NCBI GenBank assembly: GCA_030613785.1
Contig: JAUWLF010000001.1
Location: forward strand, 1-64,000
Length of the DNA stretch: 64,000 nucleotides
Source: Chloroflexota bacterium
GTDB lineage: Bacteria; Chloroflexota; Anaerolineae; UBA7937; B3-Chlor
Reading direction: 5' to 3'
A program made the translations under genes and the position numbers. Below the pieces are notes generated by a model. That model was not told where the DNA came from and did not search any database. It saw only the letters and a list, made by a program, of their open reading frames with translations. This document shows positions 15,240 to 28,068 of this stretch, in pieces; the first letter of the stretch is position 1, and the number at the start of each line of letters is the position of its first letter.

Positions 15240-16616
15240 ATGACTGACAGAGTGAACCCCCGAATCTTTCGCCAGTACGACGTGAGAGGGGTCGTAGGTG
15301 AGGACCTGACCGAGGACGTGGTGGAGGAACTGGGTAAGGGGTACGGTGCCTACGTGAGCGGCCTGGGCAAGAAAAGGGTCAGTGTAGGATATGATGCCCG
15401 ACCCAGTTCACCACCGTTCCGTGACGCACTGATCAAGGGCATTCTTTCCACTGGAGTTGACGTCGTAGATCTGGGTATGGTGCCCACCCCGACCTTTTAC
15501 TTCTCACTCTTCCATCTCGATGTGGAAGGTGGGGTGATGATCACCGGCAGTCATAACCCGCCAGAGTTCAACGGTTTCAAGCTCGCTGTAGGGCACAGCA
15601 CCATCTACGGCGATGACATCCAGGCAATCCGGCAGATCATCGAGGCGGCTGACTACCCCCCGGGGCAGGGAACGCTGACTCAACGGGATGTGAAGCCCGC
15701 CTACCTGGACACCCTGAAAGAGCGCATCGGAGCCTTCGAGAGGAAACTGAAGGTCGTCGTAGACGCTGGGAACGGCATGGCAGCCATGTTCTGCCCACAA
15801 CTCCTCCAGGACCTGGGCGCTGAAGCGCACGGGCTATACTGTGAAGTTGATGGCACGTTCCCGAATCACCACCCCGACCCCACCGTGCCCGCTTACCTGA
15901 CGGACCTGATCGCCATGGTGCTGGAAGAAAAGGCTGATTTGGGGATAGCCTACGATGGCGATGCTGATCGCTTGGGGGTCATTGACGAGCAAGGCAACAT
16001 CATCTGGGGCGACCAACTTCTGATTCTCTTCTCCCGTGAGATCCTGGCCCACCAGCCAGGAGCCACCATCATCTTCGAGGTCAAATGCTCCCAGGCTTTG
16101 CCCGAAGAGATCGAAAAGGCGGGCGGTGTTCCCCTCATGTGGCGGACGGGGCACTCGCTGATCAAGGAGAAGATGAAAGAGGAGAATTCACCTCTAGCAG
16201 GCGAGATGAGCGGTCATCTGTTCTTCGCCGACGAGTACTACGGATATGATGATGCCATCTATGCCTCCTTGCGATTGGTGCGGCTATTGTCTCGATCCGA
16301 CAAGACCATAGGTCAGATGTTAGCCGATGTCCCCAAGTACTACTCAACGCCAGAGATCCGGGTGGACTGCCCCGACGAGGAGAAGTTCCAGGTGGTGTCA
16401 GCTCTCACAGAGCATTTCAAGAAGACATACGAAGTCATCGACGTAGACGGAGCCCGCATACTCTTCGGAGATGGATGGGGATTGGTGCGAGCCTCCAACA
16501 CTCAGCCGGCGCTGGTCTTGCGCTTCGAGGCGCAGACCCCCGAGCGGCTTGTCGAGATCAAACAGATAGTCCTGACCAAGCTCAGCGGATTGGCATCGGT
16601 GGAGTTACCGACTTGA
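15240..16616 (+). CDS. manB: Phosphomannomutase/phosphoglucomutase, alpha-D-phosphohexomutase family
   Basis: 458 residues, full length. N-terminal FRQYDVRGVVGEDL, phosphoserine loop ITGSHNPPEFNG, metal loop AYDGDADRLGVID, sugar-binding GEMSGHLFF and phosphate-binding RASNTQPALVLRFE are all present. Family members interconvert the 1- and 6-phosphates of mannose, glucose or glucosamine. Specificity is not certain; the run of glycolytic genes suggests glucose/mannose phosphates. The ATG follows an AAAGGA site. It is the first of three members of this family in the window (see 23041..25704 and 25705..27099). Confidence 0.9.
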   Translation: MTDRVNPRIFRQYDVRGVVGEDLTEDVVEELGKGYGAYVSGLGKKRVSVGYDARPSSPPFRDALIKGILSTGVDVVDLGMVPTPTFYFSLFHLDVEGGVMITGSHNPPEFNGFKLAVGHSTIYGDDIQAIRQIIEAADYPPGQGTLTQRDVKPAYLDTLKERIGAFERKLKVVVDAGNGMAAMFCPQLLQDLGAEAHGLYCEVDGTFPNHHPDPTVPAYLTDLIAMVLEEKADLGIAYDGDADRLGVIDEQGNIIWGDQLLILFSREILAHQPGATIIFEVKCSQALPEEIEKAGGVPLMWRTGHSLIKEKMKEENSPLAGEMSGHLFFADEYYGYDDAIYASLRLVRLLSRSDKTIGQMLADVPKYYSTPEIRVDCPDEEKFQVVSALTEHFKKTYEVIDVDGARILFGDGWGLVRASNTQPALVLRFEAQTPERLVEIKQIVLTKLSGLASVELPT

Positions 16617-21836: not shown

Positions 21837-23006
21837 CTACAGACGACCCAGATCCATGGTCACGAGTTGGTCCCACCAATAGCGCACTCGAGTGAGAGGC
21901 CTATCGCGCCCAATGCACCTGAAGTATGGAGGTTGAAAGGCCTTTATGAGGTCGCCGATCTCGTAGCGAGGCAGGATCGGCGTAGACACGACGAGGCTGC
22001 CTGTCTCCCCCGGATGCATCTCGTGCATCATCTTGATGCCTCGCGGGGTTTGAATCTCGAAGAAAAAGAGGTCGTAGTTGGGCACCCATGCCCGCTTCTC
22101 ATCCCTCTGCTGGCCGAAGATGCCTTCCGTTGTGCCATAGATCTCGGCGATGTCCGCCGGGCCGAATAGGGCCCTCAGGATAGATCGGTGTTTGGTGTTG
22201 ATACCCGGCACACTGCCCAGGGTCATGATCCGTATGTGCCACAGGTCCTTCGGGTACACATTGTGTGCCTGATGTAGATACCGGCCAAAGTCCACGGCCG
22301 TCGGCGCCACGCCGCCCACAATGGTGATATCCTCATCCTTGCATCGCTCGTAGGCCAGTTCGAAGCGCCGCTTCCAGTCCTCTATCGTCTTTCCGCCTCC
22401 CAGTGCGTCCACGTCTTCTTGGGTAGGAAGGGTACGGAGAGGCGTGGCCGCTGTCGTACGCTTCGAATAGATGCCGGAGCTATAGCCGTACTCCACTTCT
22501 CGCTCCCCAACTCGGAGGGTGCCCACGACGGAGGGGAAATTCAGATTGAGGTTCACACCCTGAAGCACATCAAACTGGCCGGTGCGCGCAATGTGGTTCA
22601 TTAGCGCCCGGCCAGCACAGGCCCGCCCCTCGAGGTCCATGGGGGTCATGGGAATGAACTTGGACTCACCCTTCGTCGTCCCGCGGGTGATGGCCCAGCC
22701 GACTGGCGGCTCGTGGAGCAGAACGTCCTCCTCTCCGGCCATCACTCGGTCAATCAAGGGCTTCAAGTCATCGTAGGTAGCGATGGGAAAAGCGTCCCTG
22801 TACTGCTCTACCGTCTTGACACCAACCGCTCCGTGCTGCACCCCGTACTTCGTCTGAGCATAACCCCGCAGCACCCTCTCCAACACGGCCTCCTGTGCGG
22901 CCGCGGGGTCTGCCACGGCCTCGTGCCACGGACTGAGAAAGGCTTCCAGCATCTGAACTCCGGCTTCCCTCTCTTGTGCCAACGCCTCTTCTAGCTTCTC
23001 AGCCAT
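21837..23006 (-). CDS. GH3-like acyl-adenylating enzyme, short form
   Basis: 389 residues. The sequence KYGVQHG, ITRGTTKGESKFIPMT (the phosphate-binding loop), YGYSSG and YGTTEG are GH3-family motifs. GH3 proteins activate carboxylic acids with ATP and join them to amino acids; bacterial members are poorly studied. Typical GH3 proteins are 500-600 residues. This one stops soon after the GRDRPLTRVRYWWDQL segment and lacks the C-terminal lid domain that closes on the active site. The end shows no frameshift, so it may be a natural short form. GGGGGTGAG precedes the ATG. It follows the YvcK-mutase fusion with a 34-base gap, so they probably share a transcript. Confidence 0.7.
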   Translation of the reverse strand: MAEKLEEALAQEREAGVQMLEAFLSPWHEAVADPAAAQEAVLERVLRGYAQTKYGVQHGAVGVKTVEQYRDAFPIATYDDLKPLIDRVMAGEEDVLLHEPPVGWAITRGTTKGESKFIPMTPMDLEGRACAGRALMNHIARTGQFDVLQGVNLNLNFPSVVGTLRVGEREVEYGYSSGIYSKRTTAATPLRTLPTQEDVDALGGGKTIEDWKRRFELAYERCKDEDITIVGGVAPTAVDFGRYLHQAHNVYPKDLWHIRIMTLGSVPGINTKHRSILRALFGPADIAEIYGTTEGIFGQQRDEKRAWVPNYDLFFFEIQTPRGIKMMHEMHPGETGSLVVSTPILPRYEIGDLIKAFQPPYFRCIGRDRPLTRVRYWWDQLVTMDLGRL

Positions 23007-23040: not shown

Positions 23041-25704
23041 CTAGGCGATCACCGATGGCAGGAACTGAGATATGCGCCTTGTGACAGTCTCCTGTATTTC
23101 CCGCAAGTCCTCCTCGGTCCTGCCCTCGACTCTGACGGACAGTACCGGCTGCGTGTTCGAGGCCCTCACCAAAGCCCAACCACCCTCGAACTTAATGCGC
23201 GCCCCATCTATGTCTATGACCTCGTGGCTCTCCATGAACGACTCCTTGATCATCTCCACTATGCCGAACTTCTGCGTATCCGCACAGGGTATTCGCATTT
23301 CCGGCGAGCTGTAGTACCTCGGCAGTTCCTGCACTAGTTCTGACAGGGGCTTGTCCATCTTGGAGAGATACTCGGCAAGCTTCCCCGCTGCGAAGAGGGC
23401 ATCGTCAAAGTTGAGAGGGGGATCATTGAAGAAGACGTGCCCGCTCAACTCCACGCCCAAAGCTGCGTTCTCCTGCCTCATCTTCTGGAGTATGTATGCG
23501 TTGCCACACCTGGTCATGAACGGTATTCCACCGTGACCCACGATATCGTCTATCAGGGCCTGAGAGCAGCGAACGTCCAAGACGACCTTAGCAGGCCCAC
23601 CGACCAGGAACTCCCTGGCTAGAAGGGCCACGTACTTGTCTGGCAGCACAGTCGCCCCACGTTCATCGACTACGCCTAGCCTGTCTCCATCGCCATCGAA
23701 GCCGATTCCGAAGTCCGCGGACTCCTTGAGAACCGTGGCCTTCAGATCACGGATGTTCTCCTCCACCAGTGGGTCAGGCTCATGGTTCGGAAAGCGACCA
23801 TCGGGTTCGCAATACAGCGACACGACCTCGCATCCCAGGTCCTCCATCAACCGACTGCCAAGAAGGCCCGCCGTGCCGTTCCCTCCATCCACCACCACCT
23901 TCAGCCGACGATTCAGTAGGATTCTCTCTCGAATATGGTCCATATACGCGGGAATCACGTTCATCTCCTCCATAGAGCCTTTCCCGCTTTCGAACTGATT
24001 CTTGGCTATCAAGCGCTCCACATGCTGCAACGCCTCCCCGGCGAGTGGATAGGGACCGACCTGGAGCTTGAGGCCGTTGAACTCCGGAGGGTTGTGACTG
24101 GCCGTCACCATCACTGCCCCATCAGCGAATGCCCTGTCGAGGGCAAAAGAGAGGGCGGGCGTGGGGACGACGCCCACGTCAACGACCTGACAACCTGTGG
24201 AAAGCAACCCCTTAGTGACGGCAGAGAAGAAGCGCTCAGAAGAGAGCCGCACATCCCGCCCCACGACAACCTTGTTCCGGCCGGTACTCCGCTGGATGTA
24301 GGTTCCAAATGCTTTCCCTATCGTCTCTATCACGCCTGTGGTCAAATCAGCGTCCGCAACTCCCCGGATGTCATACTCTTTGAACACGGCTCGGCTTGCC
24401 GAAAGCTTGGCCTGGAAAGCGTAGTCCCGCAAGATCCCTGTCACCGCCTCAGACAGCTTCATGGGGTCGTGGCGGAGAACGATCTTCTCGGTGCCATTGG
24501 CGCCTTCCTCCACGACCTCTTGCACCAGGTCCCTCTCGATCAGCAGTGCCCCTTCGACCAGAACCAACTCCTCTGGCGTATCCTCGAACAAGATAATCTG
24601 GGTATCATCCTTCATGACTGGGACAGATCCCACGGGCTCAGCAGATACGCTTCGATATCTGGCCAGAACAGAATCTGTGATCTCTTCCGTCCTGCTGACG
24701 AGCACGTAGTCCAGGCGGAATCCGCAGTTGTTCTGTATAGCCCTCACATGATCGCCTACCGAGTAGCCATCCGTTAGACCCGGCTGTGTCATGATATTGC
24801 AGACGAATATCCTCCTGGCTGAGCTTCTCCTCAATAAGTCGTTGATCTCTGGAACCAGCAGCGTCGGAATGATGTTGGTCAACAGCGAGCCGGGTCCGAT
24901 GACCACGGCATCGGCCATCTCCAACGCTTCTACCACCTCGGGAGATGCCGCCACAGGCACCTCAGGTCCCTCATCAACCCTGGACTCGAGCCACACTTTC
25001 TTGATGGTGGCAGCCCCCTTCCGGGAAAGGATCTCCGCTTCGCCTGAAAGCGTCCGCCCATCTTCAAGCTGAGCACACAGCCCCACTTTCTCTGTCGAGG
25101 GGAACAGTACCTCCTCCCCCGATGTGCCAAGCCCCCGCCGTAACTTCGCGAAAGCGGTCCCGCTGCCCACGGGGGGAACGACACCGGTTATCTGCCACGG
25201 AACCTCCTTGGCGATTCGCAGCAGCATGGACAGTCCCGCAGTCCCAGCAAACACAACAACCTTGGGCTTCTCCGTTGGGCCGTGATAATAGTCGTAGGCC
25301 ACGTCAACGAGGCTCTCATTCGTGGCCCTCCGGGCCACGAAAGGAGCGACGAGGGTGTGACTCAGTTTGACGAACGACACCACCAGCAAAGTCACGCCTA
25401 TGGTACCCACGAGAATACCCCGCTGCACGTGAGGGATGAACTGAAGAGTGAGGTAATAGACATAGGATGGAAATGGCGCCGTACGGTACATGTGTACCAG
25501 AACGTAGGCGAAGCCCAAGCTCAGAAGCAGGATTCCAAAGAACAGGGCCAGTAACCAGCGCTTGATGTGCCAGCCCGGCAGGAGCAGCCTCAATACTCTG
25601 CTGCTCCTCAGCTTTTCCCTCACTCTACCTGTCTCCATCTGACCATGCCCAAAGGTACCCGGGCGAGCCGTGCTGCCACGATTGCTGTGCCCGCAGAGAC
25701 CCAC
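23041..25704 (-). CDS. Fusion: membrane-anchored YvcK/CofD-like domain plus phosphohexomutase
   Basis: Up to 887 residues. Two membrane spans (about 46-66 and 84-108) are followed by a YvcK (GlmR)/CofD-like region (about 147-440) with GLSMLLR, ELEDGR-type CAQLEDGRTL, IGPGSLLTNIIPTLLV and CNIMTQPGLTDGY. The C-terminal half (about 445-887) is a complete phosphohexomutase: KEYDIRGVAD, TASHNPPEFNG, DGDGDRLGV, SGHVFF and RASNTQPVLSVR. Canonical YvcK has GGGTGLS and DDGGSSGRLR; here these read AGTAGLS and VPPVGSGTAFAKLR, and the central stretch is clearly shorter. The regulatory domain may therefore be altered. YvcK proteins bind UDP-GlcNAc and control glucosamine-phosphate supply, so fusion to a hexosamine/hexose mutase makes pathway sense. 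GTG 25704 abuts the previous stop; ATG 25638 and GTG 25623 are alternative starts. Confidence 0.8.
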   Translation of the reverse strand: MGLCGHSNRGSTARPGTFGHGQMETGRVREKLRSSRVLRLLLPGWHIKRWLLALFFGILLLSLGFAYVLVHMYRTAPFPSYVYYLTLQFIPHVQRGILVGTIGVTLLVVSFVKLSHTLVAPFVARRATNESLVDVAYDYYHGPTEKPKVVVFAGTAGLSMLLRIAKEVPWQITGVVPPVGSGTAFAKLRRGLGTSGEEVLFPSTEKVGLCAQLEDGRTLSGEAEILSRKGAATIKKVWLESRVDEGPEVPVAASPEVVEALEMADAVVIGPGSLLTNIIPTLLVPEINDLLRRSSARRIFVCNIMTQPGLTDGYSVGDHVRAIQNNCGFRLDYVLVSRTEEITDSVLARYRSVSAEPVGSVPVMKDDTQIILFEDTPEELVLVEGALLIERDLVQEVVEEGANGTEKIVLRHDPMKLSEAVTGILRDYAFQAKLSASRAVFKEYDIRGVADADLTTGVIETIGKAFGTYIQRSTGRNKVVVGRDVRLSSERFFSAVTKGLLSTGCQVVDVGVVPTPALSFALDRAFADGAVMVTASHNPPEFNGLKLQVGPYPLAGEALQHVERLIAKNQFESGKGSMEEMNVIPAYMDHIRERILLNRRLKVVVDGGNGTAGLLGSRLMEDLGCEVVSLYCEPDGRFPNHEPDPLVEENIRDLKATVLKESADFGIGFDGDGDRLGVVDERGATVLPDKYVALLAREFLVGGPAKVVLDVRCSQALIDDIVGHGGIPFMTRCGNAYILQKMRQENAALGVELSGHVFFNDPPLNFDDALFAAGKLAEYLSKMDKPLSELVQELPRYYSSPEMRIPCADTQKFGIVEMIKESFMESHEVIDIDGARIKFEGGWALVRASNTQPVLSVRVEGRTEEDLREIQETVTRRISQFLPSVIA

Positions 25705-27099
25705 TCATGCCAAGCCCTCGAACCCCAAAACACCTGACGATATCTCGTCAGCGCAGCAGTTGGCCAGCTCCGCCACGATCAGGCACTTGATCTCCTCCAA
25801 CCGCTCGGGCGTCCGTGCTTCGAACACCAGGGCGATGTTAGGAGTGGTATGCGAGGCTCGCACGGACGCCCACCCATGCTCGAAGTCGATGCGCAGGCCG
25901 TCGAGGTCCTTGAGCGGGAAGCGCTTATCGAAACACGTCCTTATGCGATCCATGACCGCAAACTTGTCCTCGTCGGCACATGGGAGCTTGACCTCAGGGG
26001 CGGAACAGTAGCGGGGGATTTTCGCCACGAGGTCTGATAGCGCGCACCCTGCGCTTGACAACGCTTCCAGGACTTTCGCCGAAGCGAAGATCCCGTCGTC
26101 AAAGTCAAAGAGGTCATCCCGGAAGAAGATATGTCCGCTGGCCTCGCCACCGATCAAAGCCTCACTTCGCCTGACCTCCTCCATCACCCGCGTATAGCCC
26201 GTGGGAGCCATGCGAGGCACCCCGCCATTCGCCTCGATCACATCGATCAAGGCGCGCGACGAAAGCAGGTCAAAGACAACCGTGCCTCGCTCACGCTTCA
26301 ACATCTCCGCTGCGATGAGCGCCACTATCAGATCTCCAGATAGTATCTCTCCCTTATCCGTCACCAAGCCCACCCGGTCCCCGTCGCCATCGTAGGCAAT
26401 GCCCACATCAGCTTGGTGTTCCAGCACCGCCGTAGCCAGGTCCTGCATGTTCTCTTCTTCACTCGGGTCTGGGAGATGATGAGGAAAGCGACCATCCAGC
26501 TCGCAGTACAACTCCTTCACGTCGCATCCCAGTTGTCGGAACAGCTCCGGCGCCACCAAACCGGTAGTGCCGTTCCCAGCATCAACGACCACTTCGAAGC
26601 CTCTGTCTATCTCTACTCTCTGCTGTACGGCCGAGAGGTACTCTTCGAGGATGGTGGAGTCCTTGACAAGATGCCCTTCCCCCTGAGCGAAAGGGCCACC
26701 TTCTGCCAGTCGCCGCAAGGCCTGGATCTCCTCACCACTGAAAGGGAGCGCACTCTTGCGTAGCTTCAGGCCGTTGTACTGTGAAGGGTTGTGGCTCGCG
26801 GTCACAACGACCCCTCCCGCCGCCTGTAAGCGTTTGACCGCGAAGTAGACCATGGGCGTCGTGACGACACCGATGTCAATTACCTCGCACCCCGTGCCCA
26901 TGAGGCCAGCGATCAGGGCCCGAGCGAGATCGGGCGAGCTCAACCGGGCATCTCGACCCACGACCACCTTCCGATTGCTCTCTTTCTGAACAGTGGTCCC
27001 ATAGGCTGCACCCAGCACCGTGCAGACTTGCGGATCGAGGTTCTCCCCGACGACACCTCTAATGTCGTACTCGCGGAAAATGGTGGGATCCAAGAGCAA
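25705..27099 (-). CDS. manB: Phosphomannomutase/phosphoglucomutase, stand-alone paralogue
   Basis: 464 residues. All four family landmarks are present: IFREYDIRGVVGENL, TASHNPSQYNG (phosphoserine), AYDGDGDRVGLV (metal) and GGEASGHIFF (sugar), with RASHTTPNIALVFE binding phosphate near the end. It lies directly upstream of the YvcK-mutase fusion and its stop touches the next start, so the two are translated from one mRNA. The two mutases are tandem paralogues and differ in sugar-loop sequence (GGEASGH against GVELSGH), so they may differ in substrate or form a heteromer. It has a promoter at 27140..27168. Confidence 0.88.
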   Translation of the reverse strand: MLLDPTIFREYDIRGVVGENLDPQVCTVLGAAYGTTVQKESNRKVVVGRDARLSSPDLARALIAGLMGTGCEVIDIGVVTTPMVYFAVKRLQAAGGVVVTASHNPSQYNGLKLRKSALPFSGEEIQALRRLAEGGPFAQGEGHLVKDSTILEEYLSAVQQRVEIDRGFEVVVDAGNGTTGLVAPELFRQLGCDVKELYCELDGRFPHHLPDPSEEENMQDLATAVLEHQADVGIAYDGDGDRVGLVTDKGEILSGDLIVALIAAEMLKRERGTVVFDLLSSRALIDVIEANGGVPRMAPTGYTRVMEEVRRSEALIGGEASGHIFFRDDLFDFDDGIFASAKVLEALSSAGCALSDLVAKIPRYCSAPEVKLPCADEDKFAVMDRIRTCFDKRFPLKDLDGLRIDFEHGWASVRASHTTPNIALVFEARTPERLEEIKCLIVAELANCCADEISSGVLGFEGLA

Positions 27100-27168: not shown

Positions 27169-27319
27169 GCTCCCCATATCCCATTCCGTGCAACATCTCA
27201 CTGCTTCTGATAGAATTGAGCATGTCTGACAGTCGATCTGAGACGATGGCAACGGGCCGGTTCCCCTGCAGGGAGTGTTCTCGCGAGATCGGACGGATCC
27301 AGTCAAGGAGGTTACCACA

Positions 27320-27577
27320 TTGACGAAGGTGAAACTGTACGCGTTGAGTACGTGTGGCTGGTGCAGAAAGACCAAGCGGTTCCTGGACGACAACGACGTT
27401 GATTATGAGTACGAGTACCTTGATCTGCTAACGGGCAACGAGAGGGTTCGCGCTCTGGCGGAAGTGGAGCAGTACAACCGCCGTAAGAGCTTTCCGACCC
27501 TTGTCGTGCAGAACGACGACACCCACGTAGTCATCGGCTACAGGGAGAGCCGCTTGCGGGAGGTGCTAGGCGTATGA
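27320..27577 (+). CDS. Glutaredoxin-like protein
   Basis: 85 residues. The redox motif C-GW-C follows the first strand (KLYALSTCGWCRKTKRFL), and the cis-proline region SFPTLVV and the C-terminal GYRESRLREVL match the glutaredoxin fold. The start is TTG 27320, with a perfect AAGGAGGT (27305..27312) seven bases upstream. An in-frame ATG further upstream (27275) would add an unrelated tail. Its stop overlaps the next start by four bases (ATGA), so the product is made together with the FTR-like protein, which is probably its reductant. Confidence 0.85.
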   Translation: MTKVKLYALSTCGWCRKTKRFLDDNDVDYEYEYLDLLTGNERVRALAEVEQYNRRKSFPTLVVQNDDTHVVIGYRESRLREVLGV

Positions 27578-28068
27578 GTTCACAACAGGCTCGCGCTCTA
27601 TACGAGCGTCTGAAACGCGAGGCAGAGGCAGCCGGATACTTCCTCAATCCAGACGACGACTTCGTCTTGGATTTGATGGAAGGTCTGCTGACCAATGAAG
27701 AGAGATACGGCTATCAGGCTTGCCCCTGCCGGCTGGCCGAAGGGCTCAGAGCGAACGATCTGGACATCATCTGCCCTTGCGACTACCGCGACCCCGACTT
27801 GGACGAATACGGCGCCTGCTACTGCGCGCTATACGTCTCTGAAGAGATTGCTCTCGGCCACAGGCAAGTCGAGCCCGTGCCCGAGCGCCGCGGTGCGGAG
27901 CGCGAAACAGCGGCTGACGAACACGCGGAGGAGTTGGTTGGCTTCACGCGGGGCGCCATTCCCATTTGGCGCTGCAAGGTCTGCGGCTACCTCTGTGCGC
28001 GACCGCAGCCTCCCCTCAAGTGCCCTGTCTGCAAGGCAGATAAGGACCGCTTTGAACGCTTTGCCTGA
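27574..28068 (+). CDS. Ferredoxin-thioredoxin reductase catalytic subunit fused to rubredoxin-like domain
   Basis: 164 residues. Residues 1-90 are the FTR catalytic chain: CPC (50-52), CPC (67-69) and CYC (82-84), the six cysteines that hold the 4Fe-4S cluster and the active disulfide. A charged linker leads to a rubredoxin-like domain with CKVCG and CPVC (about 133-155). FTR passes electrons from ferredoxin to thioredoxin-type proteins. Here the built-in rubredoxin may replace or assist ferredoxin, and the partner disulfide protein is the coupled glutaredoxin. No FTR variable chain is seen, as usual outside oxygenic phototrophs. Confidence in both domains is high; the electron route is inferred. 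Confidence 0.88.
   Translation: MSSQQARALYERLKREAEAAGYFLNPDDDFVLDLMEGLLTNEERYGYQACPCRLAEGLRANDLDIICPCDYRDPDLDEYGACYCALYVSEEIALGHRQVEPVPERRGAERETAADEHAEELVGFTRGAIPIWRCKVCGYLCARPQPPLKCPVCKADKDRFERFA

Follow-up and report, generated by a model that had tools for sequence, protein, structure and literature searches.

A shortened YvcK-like domain without its catalytic aspartates is joined to a phosphohexomutase in Chloroflexota

Introduction

GlmR (YvcK, CuvA, UPF0052), described in Bacillus subtilis and Listeria monocytogenes, has been proposed to combine three roles, those of an enzyme, an activator of GlmS and a sensor of UDP-N-acetylglucosamine (UDP-GlcNAc). Its uridyltransferase reaction requires an aspartate pair, D38/D39 in B. 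subtilis and D40/D41 in Listeria (PMC10128056, PMC13046274), and in the Listeria GlmR study the catalytic site and the ligand site are apart. The B. subtilis protein stimulates GlmS, and UDP-GlcNAc prevents this stimulation (PMC7525490). Binding of UDP-GlcNAc by B. subtilis YvcK is almost lost with the substitutions Y265A and R301A and is weakened by N218A, T14A having little effect; UDP-glucose (UDP-Glc) is also bound, about five-fold more weakly (PMC5482804). Point mutations within a single protein do not easily tease the roles of GlmR apart. Here we describe a whole clade of shortened YvcK proteins (ΔYvcK) in which catalysis appears to be gone and sensor residues are kept, starting from one member in a 64,000-nucleotide stretch (the window) of contig JAUWLF010000001.1 of Chloroflexota bacterium GCA_030613785.1 (genome G000). 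In this genome a single gene, at 23041..25704 on the minus strand, encodes a membrane hairpin, a ΔYvcK domain and a phosphohexomutase.

Results

The fusion gene is one open frame of 887 codons with no internal stop codon, and all of its features given below lie on the minus strand. Pfam searches recovered a CofD match (PF01933, 9.4e-43), whose best stretch aligned residues 187-358 with profile positions 106-270, and all four PGM_PMM domains across residues 440-875 (E values of 5e-37 to 2.5e-13), in agreement with the original prediction of a YvcK/CofD-like domain and a full phosphohexomutase in a single frame. The ΔYvcK domain (residues 144-437; 24394..25275) has the YvcK fold minus a segment of ~66 residues (PPGDxRN...HSFGN). 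Its AlphaFold2 (AF2) model had a predicted local distance difference test score (pLDDT) of 87.6, and the best Foldseek match of this model was 2o2z (template-modelling score, TM, 0.68), with 2hzb, 2ppv and 2q7x as the other top Protein Data Bank (PDB) matches.

Within this fold, the positions associated with catalysis have changed. The glycine loop, GGGTGLS in canonical YvcK, reads AGTAGLS (residues 153-159; 25228..25248), with loss of the Thr14 equivalent, and VPPVGSGTAFAKLR (residues 176-189; 25138..25179) replaces TVADDGGSSGRLR, so that the catalytic aspartates corresponding to B. subtilis D38/D39 (PMC10128056, PMC13046274) are now G/S. The deletion junction follows at GTSGEE (residues 193-198; 25111..25128), where canonical YvcK is ~66 residues longer; relative to the canonical YvcK of this genome, the stretch between the second motif and 'EVLFPS' is reduced by ~66 residues. 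Both altered motifs and the shortened middle of the domain had been read correctly from the letters of the window by the original prediction.

The residues mapped to ligand binding behave differently. We numbered them by profile alignment to the B. halodurans structures (2hzb, 2o2z), in which T13, N217, Y264 and R300 are T14, N218, Y265 and R301 of B. subtilis. Asn303 of the fusion (24796..24798) falls at N217/N218, and the two UDP-GlcNAc-binding positions Y264/Y265 and R300/R301 are occupied by Tyr350 (24655..24657) and Arg411 (24472..24474). In an alignment of 36 ΔYvcK proteins (11 fused and 25 unfused) with canonical YvcK, the Tyr265 and Arg301 equivalents were present in 36/36 and the Asn218 equivalent in 34/36, and the aspartate pair was present in 0/36; the PPGD-HSFGN stretch comprised 0–3 residues in all 36, versus 39–42 in canonical YvcK. 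By alignment, then, the catalytic pair and part of the CofD-type active site are gone and the UDP-GlcNAc site, as mapped in Bacillus, is kept. Only part of the earlier suggestion of a damaged ligand site stands: the glycine-loop threonine is lost from the fused proteins, at a position where the effect of T14A is slight (PMC5482804), and the tyrosine, the arginine and nearly every asparagine remain. The residue corresponding to Listeria N198, which we placed at a PNLL position by counting and therefore less certainly, is absent from the fused forms and present in those of families f71 and f107. The replacement motifs are themselves conserved among the fusions, as FAGTxGL.ML and VPPxxxGxxFAxL. 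The fusion scored below the cut-offs of both the GlmR/YvcK model (TIGR01826, 134.7 bits versus 196) and the CofD model (TIGR01819, 19.2 bits versus 257.45).

The same architecture recurs in G001, G002, G003, G010, G074, G119, G182, G214, G234, G244 and L058, the fusions from three genomes of the window's family being 80–87% identical and those of more distant Chloroflexota ~50% identical over the whole length. The original prediction had allowed that a sequence error might have joined two genes; because the fusion recurs in so many genomes, we ruled out a frameshift or assembly join. The frame is under purifying selection: among same-family genomes, NG86 ratios of nonsynonymous to synonymous divergence (dN/dS) were 0.06–0.11 for the ΔYvcK part and 0.02–0.06 for the mutase, the exact values being rough because several dS values were high, and dS approached saturation in wider pairs. 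The GTG at 25704 that is listed as the start codon probably lies too far upstream, because sequence conserved among relatives opens only near codon 23 (ATG, 25638) or codon 28 (GTG, 25623), where relatives have ATG; one of these two codons is probably the true start. Separately, the G054 copy is interrupted by an in-frame TAG (L038:1189-1191) at the mutase metal-binding loop and lies on two contigs, representing either a pseudogene or an assembly fault.

A profile built on the ΔYvcK domain was run against genomes at two levels, 396 from the class and 400 from the phylum, most of them metagenome assemblies. Unfused ΔYvcK proteins were ~424 amino acids long in the Anaerolineae-level families f35 and f51 and ~400 amino acids in f71, f107 and others; some matches in the phylum scan (e.g., G397 and G424) were other YvcK-like proteins. 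All 11 fused proteins in the alignment lack the PPGD-HSFGN stretch. In a bootstrap tree of 35 of the 36 ΔYvcK proteins, built from columns chosen to exclude the deletion, ΔYvcK formed one group (support 100/99) and the 11 fused proteins another within it (100/100). These groupings are most simply explained by one segment loss and one fusion event, and they mark ΔYvcK as a distinct and ancient Chloroflexota clade; the tree ruled out recent derivation of the fusion from the genome's own canonical YvcK. We found no description of a YvcK–mutase fusion or of the ΔYvcK clade in the open-access papers searched. In f106 genomes we also observed a YvcK-like protein in tandem with a ΔYvcK-like protein (L263:3760-5214, L268:3553-4716, L258:1355-2563), with DSGR in place of DDGG in the two tandem YvcK-like proteins that were aligned.

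The genome also encodes a canonical YvcK (contig C14, 446 amino acids) that scored 348.8 bits on TIGR01826 (cut-off 196) and has intact GGGTG, DDGG and PPGDFRN...GHSFGN elements. Because this protein is present and the fusion scores far lower on the same model, the fusion is a second, divergent YvcK paralogue. The Tyr265 equivalent is missing from nearly all canonical Chloroflexota YvcK, often together with that of Arg301 (e.g., L040:6970-8307 and most of L061-L112), and canonical YvcK proteins of other phyla in the alignment set retain the tyrosine. Listeria GlmR is also reported to be without Y265 (PMC10128056), so loss of this residue alone is no proof of lost binding. Canonical YvcK was not found in G119, G182, G010 or f35, although ΔYvcK is present there, so any division of labour between the two is not universal; the PF01933 matches that we inspected in f35 and G074 were F420 CofD or another CofD-like protein.

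Genome context provided the strongest functional evidence, tying ΔYvcK to the pathway more securely than do the mutase family scores. At unfused Anaerolineae loci, glmS lies directly upstream of ΔyvcK in 7/7 cases and a mutase directly downstream in six of the seven (Arch_GlmM-type in the two scanned), with alt-glmU (TIGR03991, 408–422 bits, cut-off 225) after the mutase in all four contigs that reach far enough. These genes occupy one strand within ~6 kb, and in family f35 the operon reads glmS-ΔyvcK-glmM-glmU. In G152 the mutase and alt-glmU are together on another contig, and in f71 and f107 the order is mutase, pseudomutase, ΔyvcK, alt-glmU. Among fused loci, G010 has the order fusion-mutase-glmU (TIGR01173, 402 bits, cut-off 366.85), G054 has fusion-GlmU-like-mutase, and three f38 genomes (G074, G182 and G244) carry glmS within ~6 kb of the fusion. 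Separate adjacent genes, which together with intact motifs had been named as grounds for rejecting the original prediction, therefore do exist, and their motifs are changed as well. This synteny bears out the UDP-GlcNAc link in the earlier proposal that a regulator had been joined to an enzyme of its own precursor pathway; the substrate of the mutase is the part that sequence does not settle.

The f71/f107 pseudomutases (376–398 amino acids; L266:3836-4984, L267:6824-7951, L262:7186-8361, L275:3821-5014 and L265:6791-7969) lie between an active mutase and ΔyvcK and lack the TASHNP, DGDGDR, SGH and RxSNTxP loops, so that a dead mutase paralogue probably adjoins a dead YvcK there. The glmS gene of G000 itself (C18:6471-8314) breaks into two frames at C18:6983, possibly through a frameshift or a sequence error.

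The mutase part of the fusion (residues 438-887; 23044..24393) retains the phosphoserine, metal, sugar and phosphate loops (TASHNP, DGDGDR, GVELSGH and RASNTQP) as well as all four domains, and its nearest solved relatives are the phosphomannomutase/phosphoglucomutase (PMM/PGM) enzymes of Pseudomonas aeruginosa (~41% identity). It scored 215 bits on the GlmM model TIGR01455 (cut-off 447.55), and family-model scores do not fix its substrate. Two further phosphohexomutases lie in the window: a 464-amino-acid protein directly upstream that is 46% identical to the fused one (25705..27099, minus strand), and a PgmG-like protein beside PGK, GAPDH and apgM (15240..16616, plus strand). By the family searches from which we judged pathway-gene content, these three are the only phosphohexomutases of the genome, and none passes a GlmM cut-off. 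Assigning the substrate by elimination within genomes proved weak, as other mutases without a clear substrate remain. The ELSGH loop is common to the fused mutase and the f71/f107 operon mutase, but the tree does not resolve the order in which their groups and the PgmG group branch, so that the two mutases are at most candidate orthologues. The partners of ΔYvcK fall in two mutase subfamilies, so either the pairing arose repeatedly or it persisted while the mutase was replaced.

Near its N terminus the fusion carries a two-helix membrane hairpin (residues ~44-73 and 92-123; 25336..25575), supported by hydropathy, AF2 model helices and homology, so that the window's protein fits the earlier description of a membrane-tethered YvcK-type regulator joined to a mutase. 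The tether is not a novel feature, as canonical Chloroflexota YvcK, including C14, has a hairpin of the same kind; it is also missing from several fusions (L055/L167, L166, L160, L161 and L163). A stretch resembling it occurs in haloacid dehalogenase (HAD)-hydrolase-like proteins (L045:3270-4214, a Pfam match, and ~320-amino-acid frames in G014, G029, G036, G043, G049 and G059), and the hairpin seems to be an anchor common to different protein families.

Downstream of the fusion lies a GH3-like (acyl-adenylate/OlsH-like) gene (21837..23006, minus strand), which adjoins the fusion in G001 and G002 too. Elsewhere in the window, 27574-28068 encodes an FtrB-like protein with a rubredoxin-like C terminus (weak NCBIfam matches), adjoining a glutaredoxin-like frame at 27275-27577.

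Discussion

The reading that we favour, with a little better than even confidence, is that the domain is a GlmR retired from catalysis, sensing UDP-GlcNAc and regulating in cis the step run by the mutase. The membrane-anchored N-terminal ΔYvcK could no longer make UDP-GlcNAc and would still bind it, or a close UDP-sugar, acting as a product sensor on the conversion of glucosamine-6-phosphate (GlcN-6-P) to glucosamine-1-phosphate by the fused mutase. At high UDP-GlcNAc, the ligand-bound domain would change mutase activity, most likely lowering it; product inhibition as the direction of control is a guess from pathway logic. The fusion would be the one-chain form of a module in which, elsewhere in Chloroflexota, ΔyvcK is a separate gene between glmS, mutase and glmU. 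A product sensor is the simplest reading because the UDP-GlcNAc residues are kept, the catalytic pair is gone, the operon is one for UDP-GlcNAc, and the domain is fused to a mutase. From these features we infer that the fusion binds UDP-GlcNAc, that control of the mutase exists and has this sign, and that GlcN-6-P is the substrate.

Several observations weigh against a sensor of this kind. The neighbours of the fusion in the window's family are the second mutase and the GH3-like gene, neither glmS nor glmU, and D-type ΔYvcK proteins (f106 and f123; L256-L258, L263 and L268) lie outside the pathway operon, beside YvcK-like or other genes. The fused forms have lost T13 and the GGGTG loop of the ligand pocket. 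Their mutase falls below the cut-offs of both PgmG (NF046027, 396/600) and Arch_GlmM (TIGR03990, 388/439), and its GVELSGH and RASNTQP loops are more PMM/PGM-like. The full-length AF2 model had a pLDDT of 69, with a domain–domain interface that is not reliable. Some of these points would fit a sensor of the same design built on a phosphogluco- or phosphomannomutase and another nucleoside-diphosphate (NDP)-sugar, such as UDP-Glc or GDP-mannose, serving exopolysaccharide or glycolipid precursors in the window's family: the best PDB relatives of the mutase are P. aeruginosa PMM/PGM, its PgmG score is slightly above that for Arch_GlmM, UDP-Glc is a known if weaker ligand of B. subtilis YvcK (PMC5482804), and glmS and glmU are not adjacent. 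We consider this possible but unlikely, given that GlmS and GlmU or alt-GlmU recur beside ΔYvcK in several families. Moreover, a PMM/PGM-like mutase is compatible with an amino-sugar role, because phosphoglucosamine mutase activity can reside in phosphoglucomutases, and B. subtilis shows a genetic link between pgcA and glmR (PMC6797236).

It is doubtful that ΔYvcK is instead a scaffold that places the mutase at the membrane and next to GlmS and GlmU with no ligand-controlled regulation; the hairpin of the window's fusion, the constant operon partners and the direct action of GlmR on GlmS in B. subtilis (PMC7525490) would suit such a role, but several fusions are hairpin-free and scaffolding alone would not explain why the two ligand residues are kept in every ΔYvcK. 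That GlmR is a uridyltransferase (PMC10128056) and that the replacement motifs are conserved among the fusions might suggest a bifunctional enzyme, with mutase and re-shaped uridyltransferase sites making a UDP-sugar from a sugar-6-phosphate in one chain; every ΔYvcK, however, is without the aspartate pair and has lost the entire PPGD-HSFGN segment, making this highly improbable. Least credible is a decaying, functionless remnant or a sequencing or assembly join: motif loss alone resembles decay, as does the in-frame stop in G054, but more than ten genomes carrying the fusion, low dN/dS and conserved replacement motifs contradict it.

A more tentative idea, to which we give somewhat less than even confidence, is that Chloroflexota split two roles of GlmR between two proteins: canonical YvcK would have kept catalysis and lost the UDP-GlcNAc-binding Tyr265, and ΔYvcK would have kept the binding residues, lost catalysis, become the built-in product sensor of the UDP-GlcNAc operon and finally, fused to the mutase, a feedback domain acting in cis. 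Gene order ties ΔYvcK to GlmS, mutase and GlmU, as does covalent fusion at some loci, and the clade bears on the question of direct end-product control over the mutase in UDP-GlcNAc synthesis.

Among known systems, CofD/FbiA of F420 synthesis has the superfamily fold in common with the fusion (Foldseek 3c3d and 6uvx), but the fusion is without the F420-type active site, and f35 genomes have a separate true CofD besides ΔYvcK. The mutase has the four domains and catalytic loops of P. aeruginosa PMM/PGM (AlgC) and PgmG-type enzymes, to which the fusion adds an N-terminal ΔYvcK; it belongs to the same superfamily as GlmM and archaeal-type GlmM (TIGR01455, TIGR03990), the type found beside unfused ΔyvcK, yet falls below both cut-offs. 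Canonical Chloroflexota YvcK has the hairpin and fold in common with the fusion and the opposite pattern of loss, C14 keeping GGGTG, DDGG and the segment and lacking the Tyr265 equivalent. Compared with GlmR/YvcK of B. subtilis and L. monocytogenes, the fusion is without the catalytic aspartates, the glycine-loop threonine and the 66-residue segment, is joined to a mutase, and belongs to a clade whose genes stand with glmS, glmM and glmU rather than in the order yvcJ-yvcK-yvcL; it has in common with GlmR the fold, the C-terminal two thirds and the Asn218, Tyr265 and Arg301 equivalents, and ΔYvcK is likewise tied to UDP-GlcNAc synthesis.

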